Assembly: GCA_013287275.1 (NCBI GenBank)
Contig: JABDED010000014.1
Location: forward strand, 1-53,336
From: Betaproteobacteria bacterium
GTDB lineage: Bacteria > Pseudomonadota > Gammaproteobacteria > Burkholderiales > Burkholderiaceae_D
Reading direction: 5' to 3'
DNA length: 53,336 bases
Each line of letters opens with the position of its first letter. Position 1 is the stretch's first letter. Made by a program: the position numbers and the translations under genes. The notes under the pieces are model-generated. The model saw nothing but the letters and a program-made list of their open reading frames with translations, searched no databases and was not told the DNA's origin. Below are positions 8,045 through 48,824 of this stretch, one piece after another.

Positions 8045-8084
8045 ATAAAAAAACAGGCAGGAGATTCGCATCCCCTGCCTGTTT
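8045..8084 (-). terminator. rho-independent terminator of uup
   Basis: An 11-bp stem (AAACAGGCAGG/CCTGCCTGTTT) is followed on the minus strand by seven T residues, 29 bp beyond the uup stop codon. Confidence 0.9.
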
Positions 8085-8112
8085 GTAAAGTTGAAGCTGA
8101 ACCGGATCTGAA

Positions 8113-10264: not shown

Positions 10265-10339
10265 CTCTCCGTAGCACAATGGATAGTGCACATGCCTCCT
10301 AAGCGTGGGATACAAGTTCGATTCTTGTCGGAGGGACCA
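10265..10339 (+). tRNA. tRNA-Arg(CCU), prophage attachment gene
   Basis: Acceptor stem CTCTCCG pairs with CGGAGGG including one T-G wobble; D arm GCAC/GTGC; anticodon stem CATGC/GCGTG around loop CTCCTAA (anticodon CCT); T arm ACAAG/CTTGT with loop TTCGATT; discriminator A and encoded CCA. The 3' part is repeated at 46674-46693 and 48607-48623, and an integrase gene starts 160 bp downstream, so this gene is the attB used by the prophage. The tRNA 3' half may now be phage-derived. Confidence 0.93.
10320..10339 (+). repeat. attL core of the prophage
   Basis: The last 20 bases of the tRNA-Arg gene match 46674-46693 with one mismatch (14 identical bases TGTCGGAGGGACCA at the 3' end). The 17 bases 10317-10333 match 48607-48623 perfectly. 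Between attL and int (10440-10500) two copies of ATTTCCCCA could be arm-type integrase sites, which is inference. Confidence 0.85.
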
Positions 10340-10500: not shown

Positions 10501-11499
10501 ATGGCCTCATTCACTAAAGGCAAGAACGGTTGGCGCGCACAAATCGCAATCAAAGGTGTTAGAGACTCCGGAACCTTCTCCACAAAAGCAGAGGCAGCGG
10601 CCTGGGCGGGCGAGCGCGAGACTGAAATTCGAAGACAAGGAGCCACAGGGGTCGTCGGCGGCAAAACATGCGGCGATGCGTTTAATCGCTACATCAAGGA
10701 AGTGTCAGTTACCAAGAAAAAACCAAAATGGGAAGAGACGCGGCTGACCACTCTGGGAGAAGAGCAATTCGGCACGCTCAAACTTAGGGATGTCCCGCTG
10801 GGTAATCTGACATCAGATATGCTCGGCCAGTGGCGAGACAAGCGACTCAAAGAAGACGAAGTCACAGGCTCGACGGTGAATCGGGATTTCGGCCTTCTGT
10901 CCCACGTTTTCACTGTAGCCAGGCGTGAATGGAAATGGATTTCTGCCAGCCCCACGACAGATGTACTCCGCCCGAAAAACTCTCCACCGAGGGACCGCCC
11001 AATCGCCCAAGAGGAAATTGACCGAATTGTTTTGGCATCCGGCTTTGATGAATGCCAGGTAAGGCAGATTAAACAGCGTGTGGGCGTTGCGTTTCTTTTC
11101 GCCATTGAAACGGCCATGCGAGCCGGGGAAATCTGCGGCCTGCTACCCGCCGAGGTAAAGGGACCAGTCGCCACTCTCTCTGATACCAAGAATGGGACAA
11201 GGCGTGATGTCCCATTGTCGGCCCGTGCGCTGGAGCTGCTGACGTTCTTACCTGAGCCGGAGAAAGGCGCGCCCCTGTTCGGGCTGTCATCTGCCTCACT
11301 AGACGCCAACTTCAGGAAATTGAAGACAGCCGCCGCCGTAGAGGGGCTGACTTTTCACGACACCAGGCATGAAGCGATCACACGCCTAGCCAGGAAACTG
11401 AACGTTCTGGAGCTGGCCCGCATGGTTGGGCACCGGGATTTGAAGATGCTGCAGATTTATTACAATGAGACCGCCTCGGAAATAGCTAAAAAGTTATAA
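10501..11499 (+). CDS. int: prophage tyrosine integrase
   Basis: This 332-residue recombinase has an N-terminal arm-type domain (residues 1-50: 'GWRAQIAIKGVRDSGTFSTKAEA'), a core-binding domain (about 60-155) and a catalytic domain with Arg207 (AMRAGE), Lys230, His286/Arg289 (FHDTRHE), His311 (VGHRD) and nucleophile Tyr320 or Tyr321. All catalytic positions are present, so it should be functional. It reads away from tRNA-Arg and is the first gene of the prophage, the usual position for an integrase using a tRNA 3' end. The ATG at 10501 gives the expected N-terminus, though no clear Shine-Dalgarno precedes it. Confidence 0.95.
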   Translation: MASFTKGKNGWRAQIAIKGVRDSGTFSTKAEAAAWAGERETEIRRQGATGVVGGKTCGDAFNRYIKEVSVTKKKPKWEETRLTTLGEEQFGTLKLRDVPLGNLTSDMLGQWRDKRLKEDEVTGSTVNRDFGLLSHVFTVARREWKWISASPTTDVLRPKNSPPRDRPIAQEEIDRIVLASGFDECQVRQIKQRVGVAFLFAIETAMRAGEICGLLPAEVKGPVATLSDTKNGTRRDVPLSARALELLTFLPEPEKGAPLFGLSSASLDANFRKLKTAAAVEGLTFHDTRHEAITRLARKLNVLELARMVGHRDLKMLQIYYNETASEIAKKL

Positions 11500-12170: not shown

Positions 12171-12534
12171 CACCTGTAACGACACCCCAGACCTCAAGCG
12201 CCTCGGGATTGAAAACACGCATCAATTTATATGCGCCATCGTCGCGAGCAATAATTAGATCTCCCTGCCCTCCACTTACCGCCGTGTCAACCAACACTTT
12301 ATCGCCAGCAAGAATTCCGTCATCGACAAACGCATTCGTCTTCACGTCAAAAAAATAAGATGTCGCGCCGGCTCTGCCGATAAAAAAACTATTTACGTCA
12401 AGTGTCGAATTGGCCGCTGCTTGTTCAACTCTGTCCGCCAGGCCGGGCATATGCCCCCGATAAATTGGAATTTGAAAAAATTGTCCAGCGAGACTTGGCG
12501 AAATTGGATTTTGAGTAATTGATATCTCTGACAT
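12139..12534 (-). CDS. UmuD/LexA-like (S24 fold) protein lacking the catalytic serine
   Basis: The third in-frame ATG (12534) is preceded by GGAG at good spacing and gives 131 residues. The protein follows the UmuD layout: an N-terminal tail, then 'FFDVKTNAFVDDGILAGDKVLVD' where UmuD has the Gly-Asp-Ser-Met active-site strand, then 'GDLIIARDDGAYKLMRV' and 'EVWGVVTGVIRKL'. In alignment the serine nucleophile falls on Ala and the Lys region is altered, so self-cleavage looks lost. A canonical LexA box lies upstream, so expression should be SOS-induced. No umuC is nearby. It could be a dominant-negative or pol V-binding UmuD mimic (inference). Confidence 0.7.
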   Translation of the reverse strand: MSEISITQNPISPSLAGQFFQIPIYRGHMPGLADRVEQAAANSTLDVNSFFIGRAGATSYFFDVKTNAFVDDGILAGDKVLVDTAVSGGQGDLIIARDDGAYKLMRVFNPEALEVWGVVTGVIRKLPSSRA

Positions 12535-12551
12535 GACCATCTCCATGAATG

Positions 12552-12567
12552 CTGTATATATGTACAG
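12552..12567. promoter_or_regulatory. LexA box (SOS box)
   Basis: CTGTATATATGTACAG has the CTG-N10-CAG form with the alternating TA core of gamma/betaproteobacterial LexA sites. It lies 18 bp upstream of the UmuD-like start codon. Confidence 0.85.
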
Positions 12568-12655
12568 TATATGCCATGTTCCAAGTAAAGGTAAACCCGT
12601 TCAGATGTACGTACTTTTGAAACGCAGAGATTTTTTATACACACAAATACACAAA

Positions 12656-12710
12656 TTGTATTGTGCGATACAATTTCGTGTGTATAATTACACACAGCAC
12701 ACCTTAGGAG
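12656..12710 (+). promoter_or_regulatory. hicA promoter with overlapping palindromic operators
   Basis: A -10 box TATAAT (12683-12688) sits inside the palindrome GTGTGTA-TAAT-TACACAC (12678-12695). A second palindrome TTGTAT-N6-ATACAA (12656-12673) covers the -35 region (TTGTGC). The ribosome binding site TAGGAG follows at 12705-12710. Dyads over the promoter are the usual way HicB autoregulates hicAB. Confidence 0.7.
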
Positions 12711-12715
12711 CGATT

Positions 12716-12898
12716 ATGAATTCTTCAGAGCTAATAAGGATGCTGGAAGCAGATGGTTGGAAGGAGGTAAGAGTAGTTGGCAGTCACCATCACTTCAAAC
12801 ACCCGGTGAAGCGGAACTTAGTAACGGTTCCACACCCTAAAAAAGATCTGCCAACCGGGACGGCAAACAGCATCTTAAAAACGGCCGGATTGAAATAG
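12716..12898 (+). CDS. hicA: HicA family mRNA interferase toxin
   Basis: This 60-residue protein has the dsRBD-like HicA fold: 'SSELIRMLEADGWKEVRVVGSHHHFKHP' with the catalytic His of the 'GSHHHF' motif, then 'VTVPHPKKDLPTGTANSILKTAGL'. HicA cleaves mRNA in translating cells. The start is set by TAGGAG six bases upstream. The HicB partner lies downstream but 191 bp away with a terminator-like hairpin between them, unlike the tight spacing usual in hicAB operons. Confidence 0.93.
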   Translation: MNSSELIRMLEADGWKEVRVVGSHHHFKHPVKRNLVTVPHPKKDLPTGTANSILKTAGLK

Positions 12899-12942
12899 TC
12901 CGGTTTTTTTAAATACGAATAGGCAGGCGCCTATTCGTATTT
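12885..12942. terminator. terminator and long hairpin between hicA and hicB
   Basis: A short stem CCGGA/TCCGG spanning the hicA stop codon is followed by seven T residues. Directly after it, AAATACGAATAGGC pairs with GCCTATTCGTATTT, a 14-bp stem with a 4-base loop. Together they should reduce read-through from hicA into hicB. Confidence 0.7.
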
Positions 12943-13043
12943 AAGTAACAGGTGCTTAATGCAGGCAAGGAAGCGCAAATCAGTTACATAACCCGAGCAT
13001 CCCTACAAGGAAATGCAAATATCAATCAACTTTTTATAGAACT

Positions 13044-13075
13044 AAGAATTGGTTAATTCAACCAAGAATTGGTTA
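13044..13075 (+). promoter_or_regulatory. direct/inverted repeat operator before hicB
   Basis: AAGAATTGGTTA occurs twice (13044-13055 and 13064-13075), and TTGGTT-N5-AACCAA (13049-13065) is a dyad between them. Placed just before the hicB ribosome binding site, it is a likely binding site for the HicB RHH domain or another regulator. Confidence 0.5.
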
Positions 13076-13089
13076 GGAGAAATAAGTCT

Positions 13090-13509
13090 ATGGACATACC
13101 AGTCGCTATCCACAAAGAGGATGGGACAGCTTATGGAGTCATAGTGCCTGACGTACCAGGCTGCCATTCATACGGTGAAACAATTGAAGACGCAATTCGC
13201 AACGCAAAAGAAGCGATTTACAGTCACGTCGGAATCCTTTTAGAAGACGGCGAGGAAGTGAATATTACAGCTTCAGATATACAAAAATTGGCCCAGGAAG
13301 AGGATTATGCTGGCGCAATTTGGGCCTTGGTCGATATTGACATGACCAAGCTGGATAACAAGCCAGAACGTATCAACATTAGTGTTCCACGATTTGTCTT
13401 AAGCAAGATCGATGATCATGTAGAAAAAAGGCACGAATCTCGAAGCGGCTTTTTAGCGCGAGTAGCGCTGCAAGCCATTGCCAAAGAGAAAGAGGCTGAA
13501 GTAGCCTAG
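13090..13509 (+). CDS. hicB: HicB family antitoxin
   Basis: This 139-residue protein (ATG 13090 with AGGAGA upstream) has the HicB partial RNase H-like domain at residues 1-65 ('YGVIVPDVPGCHSYGETIEDAIRNAKEAI') and a C-terminal ribbon-helix-helix domain at about 100-135 ('RINISVPRFVLSKIDDHVE', 'SRSGFLARVAL') that would bind the operator. HicB neutralises HicA by direct binding. It lies downstream of hicA with its own candidate operator and is followed by a terminator. TA modules like this stabilise prophages and can block competing phages. Confidence 0.93.
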   Translation: MDIPVAIHKEDGTAYGVIVPDVPGCHSYGETIEDAIRNAKEAIYSHVGILLEDGEEVNITASDIQKLAQEEDYAGAIWALVDIDMTKLDNKPERINISVPRFVLSKIDDHVEKRHESRSGFLARVALQAIAKEKEAEVA

Positions 13510-16556: not shown

Positions 16557-17339
16557 TTGGAAAATAGATATGTCCTACAAGCACTGCTTTCCAATTACGC
16601 TGACCACTTTCGCGATCAGGCGGACCGGGACTATATCTCCGCGCGACTAAATTACTTTGTAAGAAGTCGACAGCAATTTCTTTGGGCCGGACAACAGGCG
16701 ATTGAAAAATATTTGAAAGCTATACTGCTTTACAACGGAAAAAGCAGCATGCAGCCGATGGCAAAGCTGGGCAATACAAAAAACACTTTCGGGCACGACC
16801 TAACTAGGCTGCACAAGGAAGTAACTACATTGACGCTCCTCGGCTACAAACTGAGTCAAGATCAGTTACATTTTCTGAAGTACCTGGATGATCTAGGAGC
16901 CCCCGATGGGCGGTATCAAACAATAGCGGCACATAGCGACGGCGAATTCATATTTAAACTCGACGAGCTGGTTTGGCATATCAGACGGTACTGTCAATTT
17001 TTCCCAAACCGTTCCCTGCAAGGCGAAGATCCGATACCAGGTTTCCAAGAGCTTCAGATCGAAGCCGTAAAAAATCCGAAATACGACGAAGACCCGATGT
17101 CTTTTTCGATTCAAAATGGCGAACTAGAAGAAATACTAAAGCTCCCTGCAGGCGACGAGTCACACGAAGCTCTAGTACGTATCAACAAATATTTTGGAAC
17201 GGGACCGCGTCCGCCCGAACCATTCCAAGGCTTCTCAAACTTCACCGTTCCAATACATTACCTGGAATGGTGGGACAAGCAATATCACGACATGGTTTCA
17301 AATTACGTGAAATTGCCAGCGTACAAAGAGCCTACTTAA
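16557..17339 (+). CDS. HEPN-domain protein, possible toxin or defence effector
   Basis: This 260-residue protein starts at a TTG (16557) preceded by CAGGAG. Residues 10-130 look like a HEPN domain: 'FVRSRQQFLWAGQQAIEKYLKAILL', then 'NTFGHDLTRL', then 'RYQTIAAH', which has the R-x6-H spacing of active HEPN RNases. The C-terminal half is unassigned. HEPN proteins are often RNA-cleaving toxins or phage-defence effectors. It follows the C4-like RNA candidate by about 40 bp, so the RNA may control it. Its stop overlaps the convergent Rz gene by 8 bp. Confidence 0.65.
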   Translation: MENRYVLQALLSNYADHFRDQADRDYISARLNYFVRSRQQFLWAGQQAIEKYLKAILLYNGKSSMQPMAKLGNTKNTFGHDLTRLHKEVTTLTLLGYKLSQDQLHFLKYLDDLGAPDGRYQTIAAHSDGEFIFKLDELVWHIRRYCQFFPNRSLQGEDPIPGFQELQIEAVKNPKYDEDPMSFSIQNGELEEILKLPAGDESHEALVRINKYFGTGPRPPEPFQGFSNFTVPIHYLEWWDKQYHDMVSNYVKLPAYKEPT

Positions 17340-31487: not shown

Positions 31488-32219
31488 TCAGGTGATGGAG
31501 AGCAAACGCAGGCGTCTGCTGTTGCTTGCGAAGATCGCCGATAGATCGGGATCGTTCGGCGGTTCGGTGAGCGCCTTGGGAGCGCGGTTGTAAGCGGTGA
31601 GATTGAATTGCTTGCCGGTAGCGTTGGAGGGCTTGTCGGCAGTCTGCGCAATGCTGTCCACCAGGCCAGCATCAAGCGCCTCTTGCGCGGTGAACCAAGT
31701 CTCGTCATCCATCAACTGGGCGATTTCTTCCAAGGATTTGCCGGACTTATTGGCATAGTCACCCGCGATAGTGCCATCCATCTTGGTGAGCAAGGCAACC
31801 ATCTCTTGCATGTCGGTCTTATTGCCGATGGCAATGCTCCATGCGTTGTGAATCATGAAGTACGCACCGTCGGACATGATGATTTCGTCGCAGGCCAAGG
31901 CAACGGTAGTAGCGGCGGATGCAGCCAGCGAGTCAACATGTCCGACTGTCTTACCGCCAAACTCTTTAATCAGTGTTGAGATGGCGCGAGCTTCAAACAC
32001 ATCGCCACCAGGTGAGTTGATGCGCACATGCAGCGTCATGCTTTGATCGAGTCCGGCGATCAGGCTGGCAACGTCTTTTGCTGCCACGCCCCAGTAAGAA
32101 TCAATGATGTCGTACACATACAGCGTGGCATCCGTACCTGCTTCGTTTTTGACCAGGTTGAGCGGCTTGCGCTCTTTGCTGGCATTGTTTTGCAATAGCT
32201 GCATCAGCTTATTTTTCAT
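31488..32219 (-). CDS. ClpP-like prohead protease (S14)
   Basis: Start at ATG 32219, which has GGAG six bases upstream and overlaps the portal stop by 11 bp. The 243-residue protein has the ClpP crotonase-like fold: 'LHVRINSPGGDVFEARAI' (oxyanion strand), catalytic Ser101 in 'VDSLAASAATT', His124 in 'YFMIHNAWS' and a later Asp in 'DETWFTAQEALDAGLVD'. It should cleave the delta domain of the capsid protein during prohead maturation. Gene order portal-protease-capsid is conserved in HK97-type phages. Confidence 0.93.
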   Translation of the reverse strand: MKNKLMQLLQNNASKERKPLNLVKNEAGTDATLYVYDIIDSYWGVAAKDVASLIAGLDQSMTLHVRINSPGGDVFEARAISTLIKEFGGKTVGHVDSLAASAATTVALACDEIIMSDGAYFMIHNAWSIAIGNKTDMQEMVALLTKMDGTIAGDYANKSGKSLEEIAQLMDDETWFTAQEALDAGLVDSIAQTADKPSNATGKQFNLTAYNRAPKALTEPPNDPDLSAIFASNSRRLRLLSIT

Positions 32220-33525
32220 TCTTTGCTCCATTTGATTGTGTTGTCGGAATGAATAGATTGTCTCCGCCAGGTTTCGGAGACATGTATTTTTTCGCCCTGA
32301 CATCGTTTTGACTCATCCAGCCGGGACCAGAACCAGGGCCGCCCAGCGCGGCGCGGAAGTATTCGGCCTGGCTCTTCGCGTCACCTTCCAAGAGCGAGGA
32401 GCGATCAAACTCAGCGAAAATGCCGGTCTGCCGAAACAGCTTGCGGTTGAGTTCTTGTTCCAGTCGCACCAAGTGCGGCTGCAAGGTGAAGCTGACGAAG
32501 GCGCGCCCCATGCTCTCGATGCCGCTGCCCCAGCTGGTGCTGGCCGAGGTCTCGCCTATCATGTGCGGCGGCACGCCAAAGGCGCGGGCAATGTCGATCA
32601 CTTGAAATTTGCGTGCCTCAAGAAGTTGCGAGTCTTGGGCCGACAGACTGATTTCTTGCGCATCCATGCCCTCGGTCAATACCAGCGGAAGTTTGTGCGC
32701 GTTGGTAATGCCGCTGTACTTATTCCTAAAGGAGGCTTGCAGCAATGCGATTTGCGCCTCATCCATCTTTTTGGGGGATTTCAGGACGATGCTGGGATGC
32801 GCACCATCGGCGAAGAAGCGACCGCTAAACTCATCCATCGCTATCGCATTGCCTGTCGCCTGCCGTGCGCCCCAGGACAACACGGAATAGCTGCGCAGAC
32901 CATTGAAGCCGTAGCCGGGAAAGTGCAGCACGTCATCCTGATCGTAGCCCTTGGCCGTATAGCCGTCGTTGACAGCATACATGTTGCGGGCATCGATGCC
33001 GAGGCTCTGCCGATCAGGGACACACGACTCCCACGGAATAGGGATGATCTCCTTGATGGCACCCAGCGGGGTACGCTTGATGAGCGCGAATGAGTCGCCG
33101 CGCAACAGGATGAACTGCAATACCCGCTGCCAGTGGCTGGCCGCAGTCCAGGCCGCGCAGGGCTGTTCGTTGAGCAGATCAAAAAGAAAGTCATCTTCGA
33201 CTTCTCCGCGCCCTGCCCCACGGCCCTTATATAGCTTGATTGGCAAGGTGCTGACGGCACCCGCGATGCGATCCACGCAGGCAAATACCGCCGATACCCG
33301 TTGCGCGGAGTCCGGCGTAACATACACGCCAGCCGAGGCGGGCGTGCCGCCAAAGAATTCAACGATGCGAGGATCTGAGCTTTGCACCATCACAGCTCCG
33401 TTACCGGCATTGTTGATTGTCGCAGTGCGGCCAGCTTCTCGCTCTGCCCGCCAGTTCGTCAGAATGGGCGAGCCGGGCGTCGCCGCTCTGTGCTGCGCTG
33501 TATTCCATATTGTTTGAGCTGTCAT
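32209..33525 (-). CDS. portal protein (HK97 family)
   Basis: This 438-residue portal shows the HK97 family pattern: 'VYVTPDSAQRVSAVFACVDRIAGAVSTLPIKLYK', 'LNEQPCAAWTAASHWQRVLQFILLRGDSFALIKR', 'DDVLHFPGYGFNGLRSYSVLSWGARQATGNAIAMDEFSGRFFADGAHPSIVLKSP', 'RAFGVPPHMIGETSASTSWGSGIESMGRAFVSFTLQPHLVRLEQELNRKLF'. It forms the dodecameric DNA entry ring. Its first codons overlap the terminase large subunit stop by 4 bp. Confidence 0.95.
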   Translation of the reverse strand: MTAQTIWNTAQHRAATPGSPILTNWRAEREAGRTATINNAGNGAVMVQSSDPRIVEFFGGTPASAGVYVTPDSAQRVSAVFACVDRIAGAVSTLPIKLYKGRGAGRGEVEDDFLFDLLNEQPCAAWTAASHWQRVLQFILLRGDSFALIKRTPLGAIKEIIPIPWESCVPDRQSLGIDARNMYAVNDGYTAKGYDQDDVLHFPGYGFNGLRSYSVLSWGARQATGNAIAMDEFSGRFFADGAHPSIVLKSPKKMDEAQIALLQASFRNKYSGITNAHKLPLVLTEGMDAQEISLSAQDSQLLEARKFQVIDIARAFGVPPHMIGETSASTSWGSGIESMGRAFVSFTLQPHLVRLEQELNRKLFRQTGIFAEFDRSSLLEGDAKSQAEYFRAALGGPGSGPGWMSQNDVRAKKYMSPKPGGDNLFIPTTQSNGAKNEK

Positions 33526-35354
33526 AGGTCTACAAATCCTTGTGAAATTCGATCATTAACGACATCGGCGGCACGGGACAGCGCCATGACAGTCGCGACA
33601 ACGCCGTCGATACGACCGTTATCGTTCGACTTCTTTTTGTTGGGTCGGAAATTGCCATTGGTATCAAACAGCAAGGCGGTGTTTAACGCGCACCAGCGCA
33701 GGACCGGATTGCCGCCATGCTGCAATTGTTTGCCATACACCAGCTCTTCCAGCTTCTTACTGCCTGGATACATGCCGCCCGTGTTTTGCGGGACTTCCAC
33801 CAATGGCACATTCAATTCGATGAGTTCATTGGCAAGCTGCAATGCGTTCCAGCGATCAAAGCCGATTTCGGCTACGTCGTAGTCCTGCATCACTTGGAGG
33901 ATCTGCCGTTTGACCTGGTCGTAATCAGTGACGTTGCCGGACGTGCCGGTGATCCACTTCTGCGCTTGCCAGCGCTTATACGGCGCGGCGTCGTCATGCT
34001 CTTGCGAATCGATCTTGTCTTGCGGGCACCAGAACCATACCAGGCAGTACCAGTCATCGCCCTCTTCTTCCGGTGGAAAAACCAGCGATAGCGCAGTCAG
34101 ATCCCGCGTGGAACCGAGATCCAGCCCGCCGTAGCACTTGCGCCCCTTGAGTATTTCAGGATCGAACTTCTTGCCACCCTTGTCCCAGACGTTGATATCG
34201 AACCAGCCTTCAACGCTGTTGCACCAGATATTGAGATCCTTGGTCAGAAAATTGACCATTGCACCAGGCAGCGCCGCCGCCTTACGCGCCATGCCGCGCA
34301 TGTATTCCAGCGTCTTGGATTTGCCCAGACCGGGATTAGCCTTGTACCAGTTGCGCTCTTCGAACGGGTCGTCGCCCTCATCCAGCGTGTAGATATATCC
34401 AAAGAAGGAATCGTCAGCTCGCTTGCCTTCCAGCACCGAGATCAGATAGGAGCGCACCTCAGTGCAGATGCCGTCGAGAATGAAGCCCGCCGTGGTGATA
34501 GCGGAGAGCAGCGGCTCAAAACGGGCACCGAGCGCGGATTCCATCACATCCCATACGTCGCGGGTGCGCTGCGCGTGCAGCTCATCAAACAGGATGGCTG
34601 ATGGGTTGAGTCCGTCAAGGTTTTCTGCGTTGGCGGGCAGCGGCGCAAAGACGGAGGTATCGAGTTCGACTTTCTCCTGGTTCAGCCCGCCAAAGACCTT
34701 GAATGATCGGGCCACACCAGGCGAGCGGCGCACCCAGCGCTTGATGTTGTCAAACGCTGGCTTAAATACCGTCATCGCCTGCGCCCTGGTCGTCGCTACA
34801 GCATAGACCTCTGCGCCGATCTCACCGTCCATCGAAAACAGATACGCGCCCTGCGGCCCCTTCCAGGTGCTCTTGCCATTCTTCCGCGCAACTTCTTCAT
34901 AGCCGCGAGAGAAGCGCCGCCCACCGTCGGCACGCCGCCAGCCGTAGAGCACCGCCGTCCAGAACTTCTGCCAGGGATCAAGCAGGATAGGCTTGCCAGC
35001 GAGCGGACCTTTTATGTGGACGAAGTATTGCTCGATGTAGCGGATGACATGCCAGCCATGGTCCGGCACGAAGCTTAAGCCGCGCTTGCCGCCCTGGATC
35101 AAATCGTCGTAGTGCCGCTTGACGGCCAGGTAGACAAAGCGCCCGGTCAGGATCTCGCCGCGTAAGACGGGCAGGCCGTACTCAATATCCCATTGCTGCA
35201 GCTCAGCAGGGATTAATTGGGCAACCCTTTTTTGGGTGAGGACATGGCGTGGCTTACCAGATCGCCGAACAGATCGTCCTGCCCGCTTTTCTCGCCCGTG
35301 TCCTTTCTTACCCGGGCCAGCGACGGTATCGTCAGACATGCTTTCGGTAGCCAT
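33522..35354 (-). CDS. terminase large subunit
   Basis: This protein of up to 610 residues has Walker A-like 'EEVARKNGKSTW', Walker B 'AILFDELHAQ' and the nuclease region ('KCYGGLDLGSTRDLTALSLVFPPEE', 'EIGFDRWNALQLANELIELNVPLVEVPQNTGG') of HK97/phiCD-type large terminases. It powers DNA packaging and makes the terminal cuts. The start is uncertain: ATG 35354 gives a 142-bp overlap with the small subunit gene in another frame, ATG 35339 is equally possible, and a non-ATG start nearer the small-subunit stop cannot be excluded. Confidence 0.93.
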   Translation of the reverse strand: MATESMSDDTVAGPGKKGHGREKRAGRSVRRSGKPRHVLTQKRVAQLIPAELQQWDIEYGLPVLRGEILTGRFVYLAVKRHYDDLIQGGKRGLSFVPDHGWHVIRYIEQYFVHIKGPLAGKPILLDPWQKFWTAVLYGWRRADGGRRFSRGYEEVARKNGKSTWKGPQGAYLFSMDGEIGAEVYAVATTRAQAMTVFKPAFDNIKRWVRRSPGVARSFKVFGGLNQEKVELDTSVFAPLPANAENLDGLNPSAILFDELHAQRTRDVWDVMESALGARFEPLLSAITTAGFILDGICTEVRSYLISVLEGKRADDSFFGYIYTLDEGDDPFEERNWYKANPGLGKSKTLEYMRGMARKAAALPGAMVNFLTKDLNIWCNSVEGWFDINVWDKGGKKFDPEILKGRKCYGGLDLGSTRDLTALSLVFPPEEEGDDWYCLVWFWCPQDKIDSQEHDDAAPYKRWQAQKWITGTSGNVTDYDQVKRQILQVMQDYDVAEIGFDRWNALQLANELIELNVPLVEVPQNTGGMYPGSKKLEELVYGKQLQHGGNPVLRWCALNTALLFDTNGNFRPNKKKSNDNGRIDGVVATVMALSRAADVVNDRISQGFVDL

Positions 35355-39811: not shown

Positions 39812-40507
39812 ATGGAAAACATGGCTCAACGACTAATAGACGCGCTCACAAGAAAGAACGGCGGGAACCAATCGGAATTGGCCCGTTTCGTGAAAGTGAG
39901 CCCGCAGGCAGTCCAGAAATGGATATCCGGCGAATCGGAGCCGCGTGGCATTAACCTTACTCGCGCCGCTCAATTCCTCGGCGTTTCGCCTTCATATTTG
40001 AAGTTTGGCGAGGCCAGTATTGAAGACATCGCGCATGCTCTTCCCCAGGACCATTCAAAAGTAATCCCTTATGATGGGGACGATCCAGAATTCATAGAAA
40101 TCCGAAAAGTGAAATTAAGTTTGCAAGCAGGTATAGTTGGTTTTTCAGTTGAAGGCGAAGTAAAGGATGGCAGGCCGATCAGCTTCAATCGTCAATGGCT
40201 GGAAGAACAAGGTCTAAACGCAAAAGACCTGATTGCAACAAAGGTCAAGGGCGAAAGCATGGAACCCTCGCTGTACGACGGAGACACCGTAGTAATCAAC
40301 ACGGCTGACCGCACACCAGTGGATGGCATTGCCTTTGCAATCAATTACGAAGGTGAGTCTGTCGTGAAGCGGATGGAACGCGATGTCGGCGAATGGTGGC
40401 TGTCGTCCGATAATCCTGATAAAAGCCGGTACAGTAGAAAAATCTGCCGAGGCAAAGAATGCATCATCATTGGTCGAATCATTCAGAAGCAAAGCCTCAA
40501 AGTTTAG
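39812..40507 (+). CDS. cI: CI-type repressor, self-cleaving S24 family
   Basis: This 231-residue repressor has an N-terminal HTH (residues 15-60: 'GNQSELARFVKVSPQAVQKWISGESEPRG') and a C-terminal S24 peptidase domain. Nucleophile Ser149 is in 'VKGESMEPSL', the general-base Lys186 in 'ESVVKRM', and a plausible Ala-Gly cleavage site (106-107) in 'SLQAGIVG'. RecA-stimulated cleavage would induce the prophage. ATG 39812 is the first start; ATG 39821 has a better-placed GGA. It faces cro across shared operators and has a second operator region downstream. Confidence 0.95.
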   Translation: MENMAQRLIDALTRKNGGNQSELARFVKVSPQAVQKWISGESEPRGINLTRAAQFLGVSPSYLKFGEASIEDIAHALPQDHSKVIPYDGDDPEFIEIRKVKLSLQAGIVGFSVEGEVKDGRPISFNRQWLEEQGLNAKDLIATKVKGESMEPSLYDGDTVVINTADRTPVDGIAFAINYEGESVVKRMERDVGEWWLSSDNPDKSRYSRKICRGKECIIIGRIIQKQSLKV

Positions 40508-41392: not shown

Positions 41393-41584
41393 ATGCCACG
41401 CATCCAGCCTGACCGCGCCGCTTTAGAGATCGCTTATGGGCGCATTAAAAAGCGCCCGTTCACCCTGGATCAAATGCTCGCCATCCCCGCACAGCGACGA
41501 ATCATAGAAAACGAAGCCCGCAGCCACATACGCCGGCGCGAGAAATTCGACATCAAAAAAATGCAATCTGGCGACAACGACTAA
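41393..41584 (+). CDS. small basic early protein
   Basis: The 63-residue product ('MPRIQPDRAALEIAYGRIKKRPFTLDQMLAIPAQRRIIENEARSHIRRREKFD') is rich in Arg and Lys, mostly helical, and could bind nucleic acid. The ribosome binding site GAGG lies inside the end of the previous gene. Function unknown. Confidence 0.65.
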   Translation: MPRIQPDRAALEIAYGRIKKRPFTLDQMLAIPAQRRIIENEARSHIRRREKFDIKKMQSGDND

Positions 41585-41604
41585 TTAAATTTATGGAGCG
41601 ACAC

Positions 41605-41901
41605 ATGAGATTCTTTGTAATAGGTGAATTCGGCTTCGCCGAGGTAATTGGCGAGCTTGTTGACTTGGGAAAGCCGGAACAATATGCCGTGCATAACAAC
41701 ATTTTTAACGACGCACTAAACGGCCGCGACGCCCTCTTCGTCATTAGTCACGTCGATTCTGGATTTCGCGTCTCTGTAGGCGACACCGTCGATTTTGCAA
41801 TCGAAAACGCCAAGCAGCGCATCGCAATGCTGACCGATCAGCAGTACCGCGAAGGAATCGCCACTGCCTTCAAAATCAAAGCAGAAAGATTTGCGGCATG
41901 A
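41605..41901 (+). CDS. uncharacterised early protein
   Basis: ATG 41605 is six bases after GGAG and gives 98 residues. The protein alternates strands and helices ('MRFFVIGEFGFAEVIGELVDLGK', 'ALFVISHVDSGFRVSVGDTVDFAIENAKQRIAML'). I do not recognise it. Its stop overlaps the next start by 4 bp. Confidence 0.65.
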   Translation: MRFFVIGEFGFAEVIGELVDLGKPEQYAVHNNIFNDALNGRDALFVISHVDSGFRVSVGDTVDFAIENAKQRIAMLTDQQYREGIATAFKIKAERFAA

Positions 41902-42164
41902 ACGAACTAATTAGCATCGGCACGGCTGTCGAATTCGACAGCGAACACGGCCCACAAACTGGCAAGGTCACTAACTTTCTTCCCTGCCTTTCCAATGGTC
42001 GCCGCCACGCCACTATCGAAATCGATCACCACTTGGACGGCATCGTCTTCAACATGCCCGTCGATGAATTGGTCCCGTGCTTAACCTCCAAAGGAGCGAC
42101 GGCGAATGCTACCGTAATCGAGCTCCGCGATAAATCAACGGTATTCAACGAGGAACAAACATGA
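41898..42164 (+). CDS. uncharacterised early protein
   Basis: This 88-residue protein ('ISIGTAVEFDSEHGPQTGKVTNFLPCLSNGRRHATIEIDHHLDGIVFNMPVDELVPCL') looks like a small beta barrel, with a pattern like KOW/SH3-type folds ('G..V.f....g...G.V'). It starts in an ATGA overlap and ends overlapping the next ATG by 4 bp. Function unknown. Confidence 0.65.
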   Translation: MNELISIGTAVEFDSEHGPQTGKVTNFLPCLSNGRRHATIEIDHHLDGIVFNMPVDELVPCLTSKGATANATVIELRDKSTVFNEEQT

Positions 42165-42457
42165 CATCAACAACAATGACCTCAACCGGAAACGATATGA
42201 ACATGCTTGTCGAAAAACTCGCGGCAGCCGTTGCGGAGTCCATCCGCCCGTCAATTCCTCTAGCCATTGATTTATGGGACATTGAAACAATTGCTGCATT
42301 ACTAAAACGCAATCCGCAGGTCGTACGGGAGCGCATGGCCTGCTTGCCAAACTTCCCGAGGGCTATTAGGTTGCCTACCACGAAAGGGCGAGCGCAGCCG
42401 TTGTATAGCGCCAAAGAGGTTGTTGATTGGGCCAAGAGCTATCAGGAAAAGCGTTAG
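42161..42457 (+). CDS. AlpA/Xis-like HTH protein
   Basis: The C-terminal half of this 98-residue protein is a winged-helix of the AlpA/excisionase type: 'IETIAALLKRNPQVVRERMACLPNFPRAIRLPTTKGRAQPLYSAKEVVDWAKSYQ'. The 'FP.a.rl....g...ly...EV..W' pattern is typical. As last gene of the rightward early operon it is the best candidate for the prophage excisionase, even though int lies at the other end of the integrated element: the two are adjacent across attP in the circular phage genome. Confidence 0.7.
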   Translation: MTSTTMTSTGNDMNMLVEKLAAAVAESIRPSIPLAIDLWDIETIAALLKRNPQVVRERMACLPNFPRAIRLPTTKGRAQPLYSAKEVVDWAKSYQEKR

Positions 42458-42548: not shown

Positions 42549-43361
42549 ATGAAATCTTTCAGCGAACGAAATGGGCATGTGCAGGTGCCAGTAGCAATGA
42601 CCCCAGGGATCGTCACAGCTGCACTGCGTAACACACTGTGGAGTGCGATCATCCACAACGTAGAGCCGGATCAATACGAAAATGTCACGTTCAATATGTG
42701 GCTGAAATTCTTCAAGTTACCGATTGACGCGAGACCAACGCTTGGCTACGCGGTCGGGGGACGGAAATACGAGCCCAGTTGGCAGTATGTTAGGGATCAA
42801 TATTTCGCCGCCAAATGGCACCAAGTATTCGACTACGTCGAGTACTTTATACACTCCGAAGTGCTGGACGAAGAGCTCGTGAATGCCATATTAGAGAGGG
42901 AAGCTGCCGCGTATCGGACCATCGACGGAATGATCTGCGAGGTTACTGACGCCGGGGAAATCGCAACAATAAATCAAGCGCTGGCACTTGAGGATAAATT
43001 CAAGCCCGTAGCCGACCACTTTCGTACAGCGGCTGAAAGATTATCCGACCGCATTAATCCCGATTATCGAAATTCAATAAAGGAGTCAATTTCAGGCGTC
43101 GAAGCTATGGCGCAAATTGTTTCTGGTGGCAAAGCCGACACTCTAGGGAGACTCTTGAGCCGCTTGGAAAGGGACCAAAACATGAACGGAGCACTCAAAA
43201 CTGGCTTTAGTTCAATTTACGGATGGACATCTGACGACAAGGGAATTCGACACGCGATGGCATTCCCCGATCAACAACCAGTGAATCAAGCCGACGCAAA
43301 GTTTTTCCTAATAGCTTGCAGTGCATTTGCGAACTATCTCAAGACATTTGACTTAGTCTGA
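42549..43361 (+). CDS. AbiJ-like abortive infection protein (AbiJ NTD4 type, HEPN C-terminus)
   Basis: ATG 42549 gives 270 residues; a possible -10 TACAAT lies at 42512-42517. Residues 1-95 match the AbiJ N-terminal domain 4 pattern ('MKSFSERNG', 'LRNTLWSAI', 'FNMWLKFFKLPIDARP'). The C-terminus has 'SIKESISGVEAMAQIVSGGKADTLG' and 'ALKTGFSSIYGWTSDDKGIRHAM', the HEPN-type domain of AbiJ proteins with its R-H pair. Such proteins are abortive-infection effectors thought to cleave RNA after infection. It sits outside the small-gene operon, with its own promoter, convergent with the NACHT gene. Confidence 0.8.
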   Translation: MKSFSERNGHVQVPVAMTPGIVTAALRNTLWSAIIHNVEPDQYENVTFNMWLKFFKLPIDARPTLGYAVGGRKYEPSWQYVRDQYFAAKWHQVFDYVEYFIHSEVLDEELVNAILEREAAAYRTIDGMICEVTDAGEIATINQALALEDKFKPVADHFRTAAERLSDRINPDYRNSIKESISGVEAMAQIVSGGKADTLGRLLSRLERDQNMNGALKTGFSSIYGWTSDDKGIRHAMAFPDQQPVNQADAKFFLIACSAFANYLKTFDLV

Positions 43362-43376
43362 CTTTTTGCACAAACG

Positions 43377-45215
43377 TCAGATAATTGAGTTGGCACTAAA
43401 AATCTGCATTTTTGCGTCTTCCTGATCAATCAACTTATTAGCCTCTCTAAGTGACCGCTCGACAAGCATTTCTAAAGCCCTAAAGTCTTTTAACACACTT
43501 ACCAATGGATAATCGCGCACAATATTTTTGAGTGAAATGATGTAATTGTTCCCATCCCGAATAAACGCGTTCGGCACGCTCAACATTTCTGCGCGAACAG
43601 GCTCGGCAGGGCATGTACCACTAATTGACATAACAAGCTTATTTGTGAGTATTTCAAACAGATGCGCAATTGGAAAGACCCCTTCTTTGTATGTGCCAAA
43701 CCGCGAAGCACGGAATTGATCCGTCCCGGATTCAAGAACAATATCTTTTTTGATAGGCTCATAGGTAACTCCAAACGTTGGGTAACAATTCTTCAGAAAC
43801 GCCAATATGTCAGAGTCAGAAGCCCCTGTGGGCTTCCCGTTTATTTCCTTGAGGAAAGTTTCCGCGCTAGGCTTCACGAGATACTTTGCATGCCGATATA
43901 CATCAATCCTATTTAAAAATATCACCACCTCGCGCCAGGGTTCGAAGTTTGTTCTTGCCTTCTCATAAAACAATGACGCAACACTGTCTGGAGAGTTTTT
44001 GATGAATGCCGCAGCAAAATACTCCACGATACTCTTGTGAAGAAACGTCGTAAGGCCCAGGCCCTCCTCAAGCATCAGGCAAGAGACCTTGGTTATATCG
44101 TCACGGAATTTTTCCATCTCGCATGAACTTGCTGGCACGTACTTTATTGCAGCGTCAAAAACCTGCGCAAATTGCTCTTGAGTCAAACTCCGTGAGAGAC
44201 GCTTTTGAACCACCAAGAAACAGAAAACTTCGAATAGTTGTTGAAGCTTCCTCTCAGATAACCCGGAATGGTGTTTTCGATAGAACCCGGCTTTTAATCT
44301 ATCGTGCCGTGAGAAAACGGTTTGAAACAAACGTTCAAAAAACTCAGGAAGTTCAGATGGAATCTGCTGTTCCGTCTCATATACCATTACGAGGAGGGTC
44401 AACATCAGCGGAGTATTTATCAGCTCACTAACTTTGCTGGGACTTGCGCCAATTGCACGCACGATTTCGGTAATTCGAGTGCTGCCAAGATTCAATTTCG
44501 AAAGAAATTTACTGAACTCCGCTTTTTCTAACGAAGCTAGTTTTATGACACGAAAATGCCTACTTTTTTGAATCTCATTGCGAGGCCGCGAGGTAATCAC
44601 AATTTGAAGCGCGTCGAATTTTTCAATCAGATATTCCAGCTCTGAAATCGTCGTAGAAACCAACGATTCTTCCAGCTCATCAAAACCGTCCAAGAGCAAA
44701 ACGATGCGGCCCGATTCGGCTAGATACTCAAACAAACTATCGTCATGACATAGATTTAATTTATCTAAAGCATCTTGTATTTGCGGGAATAGCGATTTGC
44801 CTACGGCCAACGAACGCAGTTCAATAAATATTGGTATTCTTGCAGAGCCGTTTCCATTTAGCTCTTGAAGACTTAGGTGCCGAAGGAAGATTGATTTACC
44901 CTGGCCGACGATCCCCTCGACAACAACGTTTCCCTTGCCCAAATCTGAGAGAGATTTTACGTCGGCCCGATCTTGCTCGCCTATTTGAACTTGGGCAGGA
45001 TGATAGAATGAAGTTAGCGAGATCTCCTTGTCTGGCGACCAAATGGTTTTTACTTTATCTGCGGCCGCAAATTTCTTCGCCAGGGTCTGGGCTGAATTAT
45101 TCAAAGTCCATTTTTTGAAGCTTTTTTTCAATCCATCTTTCGCCCCCTTCACTAGCTCTCCCATTAATGGACTAAGGACCTTTGCGACTGCAGTTATTTC
45201 TATTCCCGTTGCCAT
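43377..45215 (-). CDS. NACHT-domain NTPase, putative anti-phage defence protein
   Basis: ATG 45215 gives 612 residues. Residues 1-90 are a helical N-terminal domain with hydrophobic stretch 'VLSPLMGELVKGAKDG'. The NACHT NTPase follows: Walker A 'GIVGQGKS' (101-108), Walker B 'IVLLLDGFDE' (171-180), 'IVITSRPR' sensor and 'LKLNTPLMLTLL'-like winged-helix segment. The C-terminal 220 residues are a unique sensor region without obvious leucine-rich repeats. Bacterial NACHT proteins act as STAND-type immune receptors against phages. It reads toward the AbiJ-like gene and diverges from the 289-codon gene. Confidence 0.88.
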   Translation of the reverse strand: MATGIEITAVAKVLSPLMGELVKGAKDGLKKSFKKWTLNNSAQTLAKKFAAADKVKTIWSPDKEISLTSFYHPAQVQIGEQDRADVKSLSDLGKGNVVVEGIVGQGKSIFLRHLSLQELNGNGSARIPIFIELRSLAVGKSLFPQIQDALDKLNLCHDDSLFEYLAESGRIVLLLDGFDELEESLVSTTISELEYLIEKFDALQIVITSRPRNEIQKSRHFRVIKLASLEKAEFSKFLSKLNLGSTRITEIVRAIGASPSKVSELINTPLMLTLLVMVYETEQQIPSELPEFFERLFQTVFSRHDRLKAGFYRKHHSGLSERKLQQLFEVFCFLVVQKRLSRSLTQEQFAQVFDAAIKYVPASSCEMEKFRDDITKVSCLMLEEGLGLTTFLHKSIVEYFAAAFIKNSPDSVASLFYEKARTNFEPWREVVIFLNRIDVYRHAKYLVKPSAETFLKEINGKPTGASDSDILAFLKNCYPTFGVTYEPIKKDIVLESGTDQFRASRFGTYKEGVFPIAHLFEILTNKLVMSISGTCPAEPVRAEMLSVPNAFIRDGNNYIISLKNIVRDYPLVSVLKDFRALEMLVERSLREANKLIDQEDAKMQIFSANSII

Positions 45216-45611
45216 AATCACTCTCTTTTCCGCATTATTCGACCTGTTCTTGATGCGCTGCCTTCTTCTCTTAGAACCCACAAGGTGGACAGCATAGGTA
45301 ACAAATCCGCACCGACGAACCTCGCAAGCATGCACAACGTAACATTTTTATTACTATACTGCGCAAGAGTATTCCATCACATAGATGCTAAGATTGCAAT
45401 TTATAAATGCAATAGAATGCTCAGCCGAGCGGTTTAACTGGAATCTGCTTTAAGTCACTAGGCGCAATGATCAGTTTCGACCGCCCGACTTTAACCGATA
45501 CGACGGGCGAAAGCGCCTACTCCCAACGCCAAATCCGTATCGCAATGTACCGCTGCCATCAACGTCTGTTATAGTCGAATTACTATTATTCAACAATTCT
45601 GTCAACCGCCG
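45216..45611. other. intergenic region between divergent defence-type genes
   Basis: No gene is recognisable in this 396-bp gap. It must contain the promoters of the NACHT gene (minus) and the 289-codon gene (plus). AT-rich stretches near 45345-45420 are the likely promoter zone. No Shine-Dalgarno precedes the ATG at 45612. Confidence 0.4.
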
Positions 45612-46481
45612 ATGCCGTTACCAAAGCCAACAGAGTTCCTGCTAGGGACCCCTCTATATTCCAAGACCCCCTTCCAGGGTGATGAAGTCTGGGACGTGAT
45701 CGATATACTCTTCTACGCTGGCACATATGATAGCCATTGCACTGAATGTAAACGCGAGTCAACATTTCAAGTTTTAACTCCACAGCGTCCAGAGCAATTC
45801 GTGCGAAATCTAACTACTGAGAGAGCAATGAAGCGGCAGGCACTTGAAGCCCCTTTTCCTACACTGGCAATTGGCATTTACTCAATTAGAGCGTCTTGTA
45901 CAAGAGTAAGCTCCCATAGACAGGATTTCATTTGTTACGTGGACTATAAGCAAGAGGCAAGCGGTACGAGGAGAGTCTCTGGAACAATTCAAAAGATTGG
46001 CCAACAGCCATCGTACGGTGACCTACATACCCTTCAAGTCAAAAAGTATGCTCACGTCCTTTCAGAATCACAGCTCGGCGAATTTACTCGAGCAATTGGT
46101 CTAGCGTCACACGATGTTGGAGTTGGGGCATATGTCTATTTGCGTAGAATTTTCGAGTCGCTGGTTGAGGAAGCGCATCAAAACAGCATCAACGACGCCG
46201 GTTGGGACGAGGCAGAGTATCAACGCTTGCGGATGGCGGAGCGTATATCCCTATTAAAGTCACATCTACCAACGTTCTTGGTGGAACAACCGAGTATGTA
46301 TTCGCTTCTAAGCAAAGGAATTCACGAATTGTCAGAGTCGGAATGCCTTAAGCACTTCGAAACGCTTCGCCTAGGCATTGAGCTTATACTTGACGAGCGT
46401 CATGAAAATCGTGAGCGTTCGCTCAAAATTGCAAATGCGAAAGCTGCGATTCAAAAGGCAGCGAGCTCGGCAGGCCAATAA
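45612..46481 (+). CDS. uncharacterised zinc-binding protein with DUF4145-like C-terminus
   Basis: This 289-residue protein has an N-terminal region with 'HCTECKRESTF', possibly part of a zinc site with another Cys near 98. The C-terminal half contains 'RAIGLASHDVGVGAYVYLRRIFESLVEEAH' and 'LGIELILDERHENRERSLKIANAKAAIQK', resembling the DUF4145/HEPN-like helical segment found in restriction and defence-associated proteins. It stands alone between the NACHT gene and attR1. Proximity to two defence-type genes suggests a similar role, but nothing proves it. Confidence 0.6.
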   Translation: MPLPKPTEFLLGTPLYSKTPFQGDEVWDVIDILFYAGTYDSHCTECKRESTFQVLTPQRPEQFVRNLTTERAMKRQALEAPFPTLAIGIYSIRASCTRVSSHRQDFICYVDYKQEASGTRRVSGTIQKIGQQPSYGDLHTLQVKKYAHVLSESQLGEFTRAIGLASHDVGVGAYVYLRRIFESLVEEAHQNSINDAGWDEAEYQRLRMAERISLLKSHLPTFLVEQPSMYSLLSKGIHELSESECLKHFETLRLGIELILDERHENRERSLKIANAKAAIQKAASSAGQ

Positions 46482-46878
46482 TTTGCTCCAACGGGCTTGG
46501 TTCGTGATTAATTGACCGTTGATTTGGAATAGCGCGGACAGCGGTTTCGGGACCAAGGCCGGAGATGGGTTAGACTCCCTACTTAGAAATATAAAACAGC
46601 ATAGATTTTTTCGTAAAAATTTACGCAAAATTTACGCACTCATATCGCAACTATTTGATTCGAAAAGGAACTGGATTCCTGTCGGAGGGACCAATCCTCA
46701 AAGACGATCCCCTCTTTAAATCAATAAGTTACACGACAAGCAAGCCGTTAGCTGTGGTACAAATTGTGCCCAAACTGCGGCACAAGCGCGAAAGTCACTT
46801 ATGATTTTAAAACTCGGTTACGCAATGCCCATCAAAGCACGATAAATAGAGAGCGGAAACGGGGGGTTTCAGTTCGTT
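46482..46878. other. right prophage border region without genes
   Basis: The interval holds attR1 (46674-46693) and no recognisable gene. The DNA on both sides of the repeat is AT-rich with frequent stops. Confidence 0.5.
46674..46693 (+). repeat. attR1 (tRNA-Arg 3' end repeat)
   Basis: GATTCCTGTCGGAGGGACCA repeats the last 20 bases of tRNA-Arg(CCU) with one mismatch, including CCA. This is the likely right end of the prophage, giving an element of about 36.4 kb. Confidence 0.75.
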
Positions 46879-47106
46879 ATGAGAGTCCTTGGCGACCTCA
46901 TTCAGAAGTACAGCCTATCCCGCATTAGGTTCACACTCAATGCAATTGACAAGATGGAAGCCATCAGGAAGGCCGAAGTTCTCGCACGTAAATATCGCAT
47001 GAAGTTCAAGGCCCTAAATGTAAAGATGTTTTCCAAGGTTATTTTTGATATTTCGACTGGTGCTTCATGCTCCAGGGCATTGAAGGGCTTTTTATTCTTA
47101 ATTTAA
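46879..47106 (+). CDS. doubtful small open frame
   Basis: A 75-codon frame ('MRVLGDLIQKYSLSRIRFTLNAIDKMEAIRKAEVLARKYRMKFKALNVKMF') with balanced composition but no clear ribosome binding site or known domain. It lies 17 bp before the next gene on the same strand and could be the first gene of that unit or a chance frame. Confidence 0.3.
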   Translation: MRVLGDLIQKYSLSRIRFTLNAIDKMEAIRKAEVLARKYRMKFKALNVKMFSKVIFDISTGASCSRALKGFLFLI

Positions 47107-47123
47107 ATCGAGATTGAACAAAT

Positions 47124-47732
47124 ATGCAGATCCGCGCAGGCACGGTAACCGAAGTTCATCCCGAATCAGGAGATTGGGTATTCGTTGATGTTGGGTTTGC
47201 AAATTCAGCGCGGAGTTCCAGTATTTTAGTTGGCGATGCTCCACCTGTGGACTGTACGTTCGCCGAGCTGAAGTTGAGGCTGGCAGAGATTTGCCAAGAG
47301 AGCAATAAACCACTTAATTTAGTATTGGAAGCGCCACTATCTGTCGCATTTGGAGCTAACGGCAATCCCGCAGGGCGTGCTGTCGAGAAGAGAAACGAGC
47401 AAACTAGATATTGGTATGTAGGCCTAGGTTGTAGTGTTTTAGTCGCGGCTACATATTTATTGAGGTCTATCCACGACCAAGAATCTGGCCGCGAGTTACG
47501 GCTCTTTGAAGGTTTCGTTTCCTTTAAACCAGCAGGCAAAGTTTCATCTCACAAGGATGATGTGATTTTACTTCGCGATATCGTCTGGCACAAAATTCCC
47601 AGTGTTGGCAGAATTGTTGATGCTGATGAATTACGTATGAAGCACGATGATAGACTCGAATCCGCTTTTACTGTCTCAGGGATGGATTTTGGTGTTCCAG
47701 CGGTTATTATGGCCAGTGGAGGTAAATGTTAA
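47124..47732 (+). CDS. uncharacterised protein with possible RNase H-like fold
   Basis: This 202-residue protein begins 'GDWVFVDVGFANSARSSSILVGD', followed by a helix and 'LNLVLEAPLSVAFGANGNPAGRAVEKR..TRYWYVGLGCSVLVAATYLL', 'LRLFEGFVSFK' and a C-terminal 'DADELRMKHDDRLESAFTV'. Acidic residues at the ends of the first and fourth strands and near the C-terminus are what an RNase H-like nuclease would show, reminiscent of DUF429. It is followed 64 bp later by the 211-codon gene on the same strand. The pair fills the segment between attR1 and attR2. Function unknown. Confidence 0.6.
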   Translation: MQIRAGTVTEVHPESGDWVFVDVGFANSARSSSILVGDAPPVDCTFAELKLRLAEICQESNKPLNLVLEAPLSVAFGANGNPAGRAVEKRNEQTRYWYVGLGCSVLVAATYLLRSIHDQESGRELRLFEGFVSFKPAGKVSSHKDDVILLRDIVWHKIPSVGRIVDADELRMKHDDRLESAFTVSGMDFGVPAVIMASGGKC

Positions 47733-47796
47733 CTTTTTCAGTTTGAATAGTTGACGATACATTTTTGGGTTTAAAGCATGGACATGGGCAATAAAA

Positions 47797-48432
47797 GTGG
47801 GTTTGGATAGAATTTTTGACGAATCTAAGGATTTGGCCTCGAGGCTACAGAACGTTCTATCTGTGCCTAGGTACGACAATACCGCCCAAAATCGCCTTAG
47901 CCATTTGGCGTGTTCGATTTCGCTTGAGCATGCACACGCGACGCGGGCTTTATTGACCGACGGTTTATTCCCATCAAGTCTGGTTGTTCTTCGGGCGCAG
48001 TTCGAGGCACTTGTTCGGGCAGTCTGGATTTTTTACGCTGCAACGGACGCGCAAATTGAAAAACTTGATGCGACACTGGCGCAGGATACTGAACAAGGTG
48101 CGAAGAACTTGCCGGGCAATGAGGATATGTTCGTAATCCTTGATACCAAAGCGCCGCGAGCACCGGTTGAGGCATTACGTCGGTTCAGGGAAACGTCATG
48201 GAAGGCGCTGAACTCATTTGCTCATGCTGGTATTCACCCACTTCAGAGACACGAACACGGCTATCCGTTTCAAATCATTGAGCAATGCATTAAGAATTCT
48301 AATGGCCTGGCGGTGATTGCTGCAATGCATGCGGCGATACTTACTGGTCGTCAGCAATTAGTTGCAGAGGTTGGCAGGCTTCAGATGATTTATTGCAATT
48401 GTTTACCATCTATCGAATCCGATAAGGGCTAG
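47797..48432 (+). CDS. uncharacterised helical protein (DUF6988/DUF5677-like)
   Basis: Starting at GTG 47797, this 211-residue protein is all helical: 'SLEHAHATRALLTDGLFPSSLVVLRAQFEALVRAVWIFYAATD' then 'ALRRFRETSWKALNSFAHAGIHPLQRH'. The pattern R-x2-FEALVR...W...A and 'S.AHAG.H' resembles phage- and island-borne families of the DUF6988/DUF5677 kind that may be distant HEPN-type proteins. It follows the RNase H-like gene and ends 175 bp before attR2. The pair may be a small defence or TA-type cassette (inference). Confidence 0.6.
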   Translation: MGLDRIFDESKDLASRLQNVLSVPRYDNTAQNRLSHLACSISLEHAHATRALLTDGLFPSSLVVLRAQFEALVRAVWIFYAATDAQIEKLDATLAQDTEQGAKNLPGNEDMFVILDTKAPRAPVEALRRFRETSWKALNSFAHAGIHPLQRHEHGYPFQIIEQCIKNSNGLAVIAAMHAAILTGRQQLVAEVGRLQMIYCNCLPSIESDKG

Positions 48433-48824
48433 ATTAGTTGTGTCGCAGGACTGTTTGCGACTCAATTATTTGCAATTGGAATTTCGTAAAAAAACCTCAG
48501 GTGATTTGGGAACGTTAAAAATTGATCTTGTGCAGCGTCTATAAATTGCAGTAACTATCTCAGTAAATTAACTCCATATCTTCGGACGGTTATACTGGGC
48601 TTCATCTTCGATTCTTGTCGGAGACCATCATCCCACCTTGCAATTAAGACCGTTAACAAATGGTTACCGTCTAGCCCCTGCACTGCCTTCCAGTTGCTTG
48701 CCGTCGTGCTCGAGACGACTACTGCAGGCGACAAATCGCCGCTCGGAATAATTCCACAATACCTTCATCAAAAAGGGACGCGCCAAGGCCGCTCCTGCGA
48801 TATCAAGCACCGTTTTGAACCGCC
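48433..48824. other. second border region, no gene
   Basis: This gap holds attR2. A minus-strand frame at 48664-48830 is compositionally poor and has no domain, so I do not call it. Confidence 0.45.
48607..48623 (+). repeat. attR2 (second tRNA-Arg 3' repeat)
   Basis: TTCGATTCTTGTCGGAG is identical to 10317-10333 in the T arm and acceptor of tRNA-Arg. The next bases (ACCATCATCCC) resemble the sequence after attL (GGACCACCACCC) with GG missing, so the resemblance extends about 30 bases. It lies 1.9 kb beyond attR1. Confidence 0.7.

Follow-up and report, generated by a model that had tools for sequence, protein, structure and literature searches.

A three-gene cargo stack at the right end of a tRNA-Arg prophage, with a candidate one-gene family joining a zinc ribbon to a HEPN-like domain

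In a 53,336-nt stretch of a Betaproteobacteria bacterium genome (contig JABDED010000014.1 of assembly GCA_013287275.1; hereafter, the window), three intact open reading frames (ORFs) lie at the right end of a prophage and encode an AbiJ-like protein, a NACHT nucleoside triphosphatase (NTPase), and a zinc-ribbon protein with a HEPN-like C-terminal domain (Table 1). The initial annotation had described these genes as defence-type phage cargo; the genes are present as described, and AbiJ_NTD4 and NACHT are both backed by curated models. The three-gene stack is an ordinary, typical phage cargo region; what merits further work is the zinc-ribbon family, with its HEPN-like domain. In the libraries searched, this family is listed solely as a PHROG without an assigned function. 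It comes with a confidently modelled structure and a handful of candidate key residues, could show whether a HEPN domain lacking the Rx4-6H Arg can still act as an immune ribonuclease (RNase), and is a possible candidate entry for defence-gene catalogues.

The prophage extends from the 3′ end of the tRNA-Arg gene (10320–10339) to the attR core, the limits being set by the 20-nt att core GATTCYTGTCGGAGGGACCA, which is absent elsewhere in the window with up to three mismatches allowed (mean of 0.00 in 100 shuffles). Because the integrase gene is on the + strand, the CI-like repressor gene is on the + strand, and the other phage genes are on the – strand, the lytic direction is –. The AbiJ-like and zinc-ribbon genes share the strand of cI and follow a series of small + genes, two of which (41593–41901 and 42161–42457) match PHROGs of unknown function; judging from the att sites, the three cargo genes would occupy the cI-to-integrase interval of the circular phage. 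The cluster had been placed between a CI-controlled early operon and attR; the cI-side operon and the att repeat were indeed identified, but the endolysin, CII-like, Cro-like, and packaging genes are all on the – strand. The three genes had also been described as independently oriented; however, only the NACHT gene is reversed, and the AbiJ-like gene runs in the same direction as the small genes that follow cI, starting 46 bp (TTG 42504) or 91 bp (ATG 42549) after them. The guanine-plus-cytosine fraction is 0.44–0.46 at 43–47 kb, 0.50 at 42–43 kb, and 0.52–0.59 across 17–39 kb; a promoter scan showed no excess.

Table 1. Features of the prophage, its cargo genes, and the adjoining islet in the window.
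Feature	Position	Strand	Basis
tRNA-Arg(CCT), 3′ end = left att core	10265–10339	+	ARAGORN; 20-nt repeat
Tyrosine integrase of prophage	10501–11499	+	phrog_1 1.6e-49
Portal gene	32209–33525	–	
TerL gene	33522–35354	–	
CI-like repressor (HTH_3 and Peptidase_S24)	39812–40507	+	Pfam; phrog_4 2.6e-43
Four small co-oriented genes downstream of cI	41393–42457	+	ORFs
AbiJ_NTD4 protein, 270 aa (alternative TTG start 42504)	42549–43361	+	Pfam; PADLOC
NACHT NTPase (bNACHT-like), 612 aa from ATG 45215	43377–45215	–	Pfam; conserved motifs; NLR fold
Zinc-ribbon protein, HEPN-like C-terminal domain, 289 aa	45612–46481	+	87-row alignment; model; structural matches
attR core of prophage	46674–46693	+	20-nt repeat of tRNA-Arg end
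202-aa unknown protein of second islet	47124–47732	+	Nothing at E 1 in PADLOC, NCBIfam, or PHROGs; Pfam only at 0.073
DUF6988 protein (PADLOC candidate PDC-S52)	47797–48432	+	Pfam 2.5e-63; PDC-S52 8.2e-76
Second att-like repeat, 17 nt identical to 10317–10333	48607–48623	+	Exact match

The AbiJ-like protein matches Pfam AbiJ_NTD4 (PF18863) on residues 3–146 (1.4e-19; 71.5 bits against a gathering score of 34), which bears out the NTD4 pattern read in the initial annotation, and the PADLOC candidate PDC-S32 on residues 1–266 of 270 (1.7e-80). It is thus a near full-length match to AbiJ proteins of this type, from which no difference in layout was found; PDC-S32 is not named in the literature searched, so that its activity is undocumented there. 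The segments NSIKESIS and GIRH are invariant in the five aligned AbiJ-like rows, in which a canonical Rx4-6H motif is not visible. In the available portion of one survey, AbiJ-NTD4 is named as a fusion partner of AbiJ HEPN domains, and proteins combining the two are proposed to couple phage sensing to RNA cleavage (PMC3710099); the AbiJ-like protein of the window may likewise cleave RNA.

The NACHT ORF opens at 45335, while its relatives start near ATG 45215. Its Pfam NACHT match (6.6e-12; 46 bits against a gathering score of 26.7) and the invariance of the Walker A and DGxDE residues across seven aligned NACHT proteins agree with the earlier reading of intact Walker motifs, and its modelled fold is closest to NLRC4/NLRP3. 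The C-terminus had been called unique; this does not hold, as a protein from one related locus (L126) matches residues 1–613 at 41%. Beyond residue ~490, the alignment is poor and model confidence is low. The protein resembles the NLR-related clade 14 bNACHT type in its length (about 610 aa), Walker A and DGxDE motifs, short C-terminal part, and lack of a recognised N-terminal effector; clade 14 proteins are described, in the part of the source available, with an SNaCT C-terminus (PMC12169576). Identity is 29–32% to the NACHT proteins of a Klebsiella plasmid and of one Vibrio phage; a Vibrio phage gene whose record carries the note NLR_like_bNACHT01 is an example of this type. The cutoff of EruA (NCBIfam NF058535) was not reached (25.1 bits against a curated 1000).

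Whether the three genes form one composite system or stacked independent ones had been left open; a neighbourhood survey speaks for stacking and against an obligate trio. A class sample of 274 genomes and an order sample of 190, which may overlap and both include the genome of the window, were searched at an E-value of 0.001; the zinc-ribbon, NACHT, and AbiJ-like proteins matched 2, 10, and 7 class-sample genomes and 2, 3, and 6 order-sample genomes, respectively. Besides the genome of the window, none of the 273 class or 189 order genomes was matched by more than one query. An obligate trio would require every matched genome to carry the other two genes, and since none does, this speaks against it; the low match rates count on the other side, as they would make the lack of pairs weak evidence if taken alone. 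Among 209 related loci (92 zinc-ribbon, 80 NACHT, and 37 AbiJ), a NACHT gene lies 2.9 kb from the zinc-ribbon gene in one zinc-ribbon locus (L062; 1/92) and a zinc-ribbon gene lies 3.9 kb from the AbiJ gene in one AbiJ locus (L224; 1/37), while the 80 NACHT loci contain neither a zinc-ribbon nor an AbiJ gene; no family ORF was called in one zinc-ribbon locus (L047; 1/92) and one AbiJ locus (1/37). Two rare pairs and no trio in any of the 209 loci is what stacking in cargo hotspots predicts. A single three-gene abortive-infection system, with NACHT as the sensor and the two HEPN-type proteins as effectors, would fit the adjacency of the genes in the window and the two recurring pairs; the missing trio, the lack of a second gene in every other sampled genome, and the differing gene orientations make it highly improbable, and the composite reading is not supported. 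Each of the three genes may act in abortive infection.

At E 1, the zinc-ribbon protein finds no matching family in Pfam, PADLOC, or NCBIfam; its single PHROG match is phrog_25239 (5.1e-11; unknown function). A DUF4145-like tail had been proposed; while no Pfam match was found, the tail is HEPN-like in the modelled fold, and DUF4145 itself is assigned to the HEPN superfamily in the available part of PMC3710099. The model has a predicted local distance difference test score of 94.8, and its residues ~138–275 resemble HEPN structures in structural matches. In the model, the turns of two beta hairpins carry Cys43/Cys46 and Cys96/His102, the arrangement of a zinc ribbon. Sequence searches of PDB gave nothing useful, and the best BFVD match is an unnamed protein (A0A482IIS2; E 0.0075). 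Across an alignment of 87 family members, Cys96, Lys128, Gly130, Gln131, Gly170, Gly172, Tyr176, Leu177, Arg178, Arg179, Glu182, Pro220, and Tyr230 never vary, and His238 (one gap) and Ser234 (one Gly) are kept in 86 rows; the Rx4-6H motif is lacking, as columns 231–233 contain no Arg in any of the 87 rows. Cys43 and Cys46 are kept in 66 of the 87 rows, the other 21 forming one clade (100/99) of mostly Bacteroidota members. A coupling between the zinc site and His167 was considered as covariation and dropped, the zinc-less rows being a single clade. For the 87 members, DUF4145 (PF13643) is not among the 25 of 27 families listed at E 0.1, and no PADLOC model falls below 1e-3 (best, DndD at 0.0014).

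The family was collected by a search that started from an alignment of four proteins and covered GTDB and viral contigs, yielding 185 related stretches in GTDB contigs (the best 80 were kept) and 12 loci in viral contigs; single-sequence scans of the viral contigs with each of the three window proteins found no relative, whereas alignment-based scans found some. The alignment leaves out L087, L098, L121, L123, and L125, and proteins from L002, L022, and L031 are also absent; ORFs longer than 300 aa were cut back to an inner Met. By title, the relatives come from Pseudomonadota, Bacteroidota, Bacillota, Chloroflexota, Patescibacteria-type, and Cyanobacteriota sources and one Altiarchaeales assembly; the tree requires eight changes for Pseudomonadota and seven for Bacteroidota, suggesting, though not proving, transfer. 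Eight of the 12 viral loci (all but L121, L122, L124, and L125) were inspected gene by gene. The zinc-ribbon gene lies between the TerL and portal genes in three viral loci (co-oriented in L114 and L115, opposed in L123) and near an ERCC4-nuclease and primase region in five others (L116–L120), where it is opposed to its upstream neighbour in all five and to its downstream neighbour in four (L117 differs). These five related contigs share an upstream phage gene beside it (at about 7900–8800).

In four loci, the zinc-ribbon gene is tightly linked to methylase or helicase genes. In L070 and L092, the zinc-ribbon gene directly precedes a methylase-cluster gene, which is followed by an apparent helicase-subunit gene; in L104 and L111, a helicase-like gene upstream shares 16 bases with the zinc-ribbon gene, and a methylase-cluster gene lies downstream. 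Among these loci, Pfam was run individually on the L070 and L104 members. Neighbour clustering across 94 zinc-ribbon loci found no widely common partner gene; the largest cluster (eight loci) is TerL from viral contigs, and subsequent clusters contain, among others, recombinase, methylase, and related-phage genes. The zinc-ribbon protein thus seems self-sufficient. Among the nearest neighbours (162 selected after genes encoding >1000 aa and L117–L120 had been dropped; 150 scanned), the 25 of 129 families listed include 6 Resolvase, 4 Phage_integrase, and 3 N6_N4_Mtase matches, counts that have no control and imply no enrichment. A Pyrinomonadaceae locus (L062:6464–13470) has the zinc-ribbon gene among pentapeptide-TIR, SEC-C/MauJ, and NACHT genes.

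Several described systems resemble the zinc-ribbon protein in part. Its C-terminal domain is comparable to PaREP1/8 (2q00) and DUF4145-like HEPN domains, and PaREP1/8 and c2405, according to the portion of PMC3710099 available, have a conserved His without the Arg, as does this family; unlike these proteins, it has an N-terminal zinc-ribbon domain, and it has no DUF4145 match. Tha (gp03 of Staphylococcus phage 80alpha) is described in the available passages as a prophage HEPN protein, activated by tail proteins, that is a non-specific RNase (PMC11087260). Both it and the zinc-ribbon protein are prophage proteins ~300 aa long whose C-terminal domain is HEPN or HEPN-like, and both are encoded in the cI-to-int interval; however, Tha has the motif RNSIMH, its paper does not contain the word zinc, and no sequence homology to Tha-1 was detectable (hhalign probability 0.1 on a percent scale). 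BxaP, a DUF4145 protein of BREX and type I restriction-modification loci that belongs to the HEPN superfamily and protects alone, has an N-terminal DUF4145 and a HEAT-like C-terminus in the part of PMC10799925 available, and one of 21 systems in the corresponding part of PMC9519451 combines a zinc finger with a ribonuclease family; both resemble the zinc-ribbon protein by description. Neither PMC13092281 nor PMC9122126, the two papers retrieved in a literature search for such proteins, is shown to describe this family.

We tentatively propose that the zinc-ribbon gene founds an unnamed one-gene immune RNase family, in which a zinc-ribbon sensor is joined to a HEPN domain and an Arg-Arg-x-x-Glu patch on an earlier helix may replace the Arg of Rx4-6H. 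This family would reach across many phyla of bacteria and into an archaeal assembly, serving both as lone phage cargo and as a second line within restriction-modification-like operons, and would include a Bacteroidota-rich branch without the zinc site. By analogy with Tha, the protein would be made in the lysogen and then triggered by an incoming phage. The absence of the Rx4-6H Arg from every row would also suit a non-catalytic RNA-binding regulator, as proposed for MtlR-type HEPN proteins, which tunes phage or host genes and does not kill infected cells, and non-catalytic roles have been suggested for motif-less HEPN domains (PMC3710099, in the part available). Nearly or fully invariant His238, Arg178, Arg179, and Glu182 are, however, at odds with such a role, as is the close association with methylase or helicase genes seen in four loci; moreover, PaREP1/8 also has the His without the Arg, and the same part of that source argues that other basic residues can substitute. 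We therefore regard a regulator as rather unlikely.

If the gene instead served phage fitness or anti-restriction and had no relation to nucleases, this would explain the location of the family on both the phage and the restriction side, that is, in viral contigs and beside restriction-like genes, and the lack of a PADLOC model below 1e-3 is consistent with it. The HEPN-like fold speaks against this explanation, and frames that overlap helicase or methylase genes in genome contigs suit a partner better than an inhibitor; it thus appears improbable.

Directly past attR, a second islet of 1.9 kb (46694–48623) is bounded by a 17-nt partial copy of the tRNA end, where the tRNA bases following the match are incompletely kept; no integrase is found among its ORFs. 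Its DUF6988 protein has plasmid relatives in 30 records, while the 202-aa protein has no plasmid match. The available part of PMC13092281 names DUF6988 as one of five domains of unknown function with a newly proposed link to defence. The tRNA-Arg site may thus hold two tandem pieces with at least four defence-type genes. Outside the prophage, a second tyrosine integrase gene (823–1998, +; phrog_1 1.9e-58) lies to the left of a tRNA-Ser gene (3596–3686). Within the prophage, a 260-aa ORF (16557–17339, +) that is opposed to the neighbouring endolysin-side genes contains what we take to be a HEPN-like stretch and is perhaps further cargo, and two ORFs near the left end (12533–13509, +) presumably resemble a HicA/HicB toxin-antitoxin pair.

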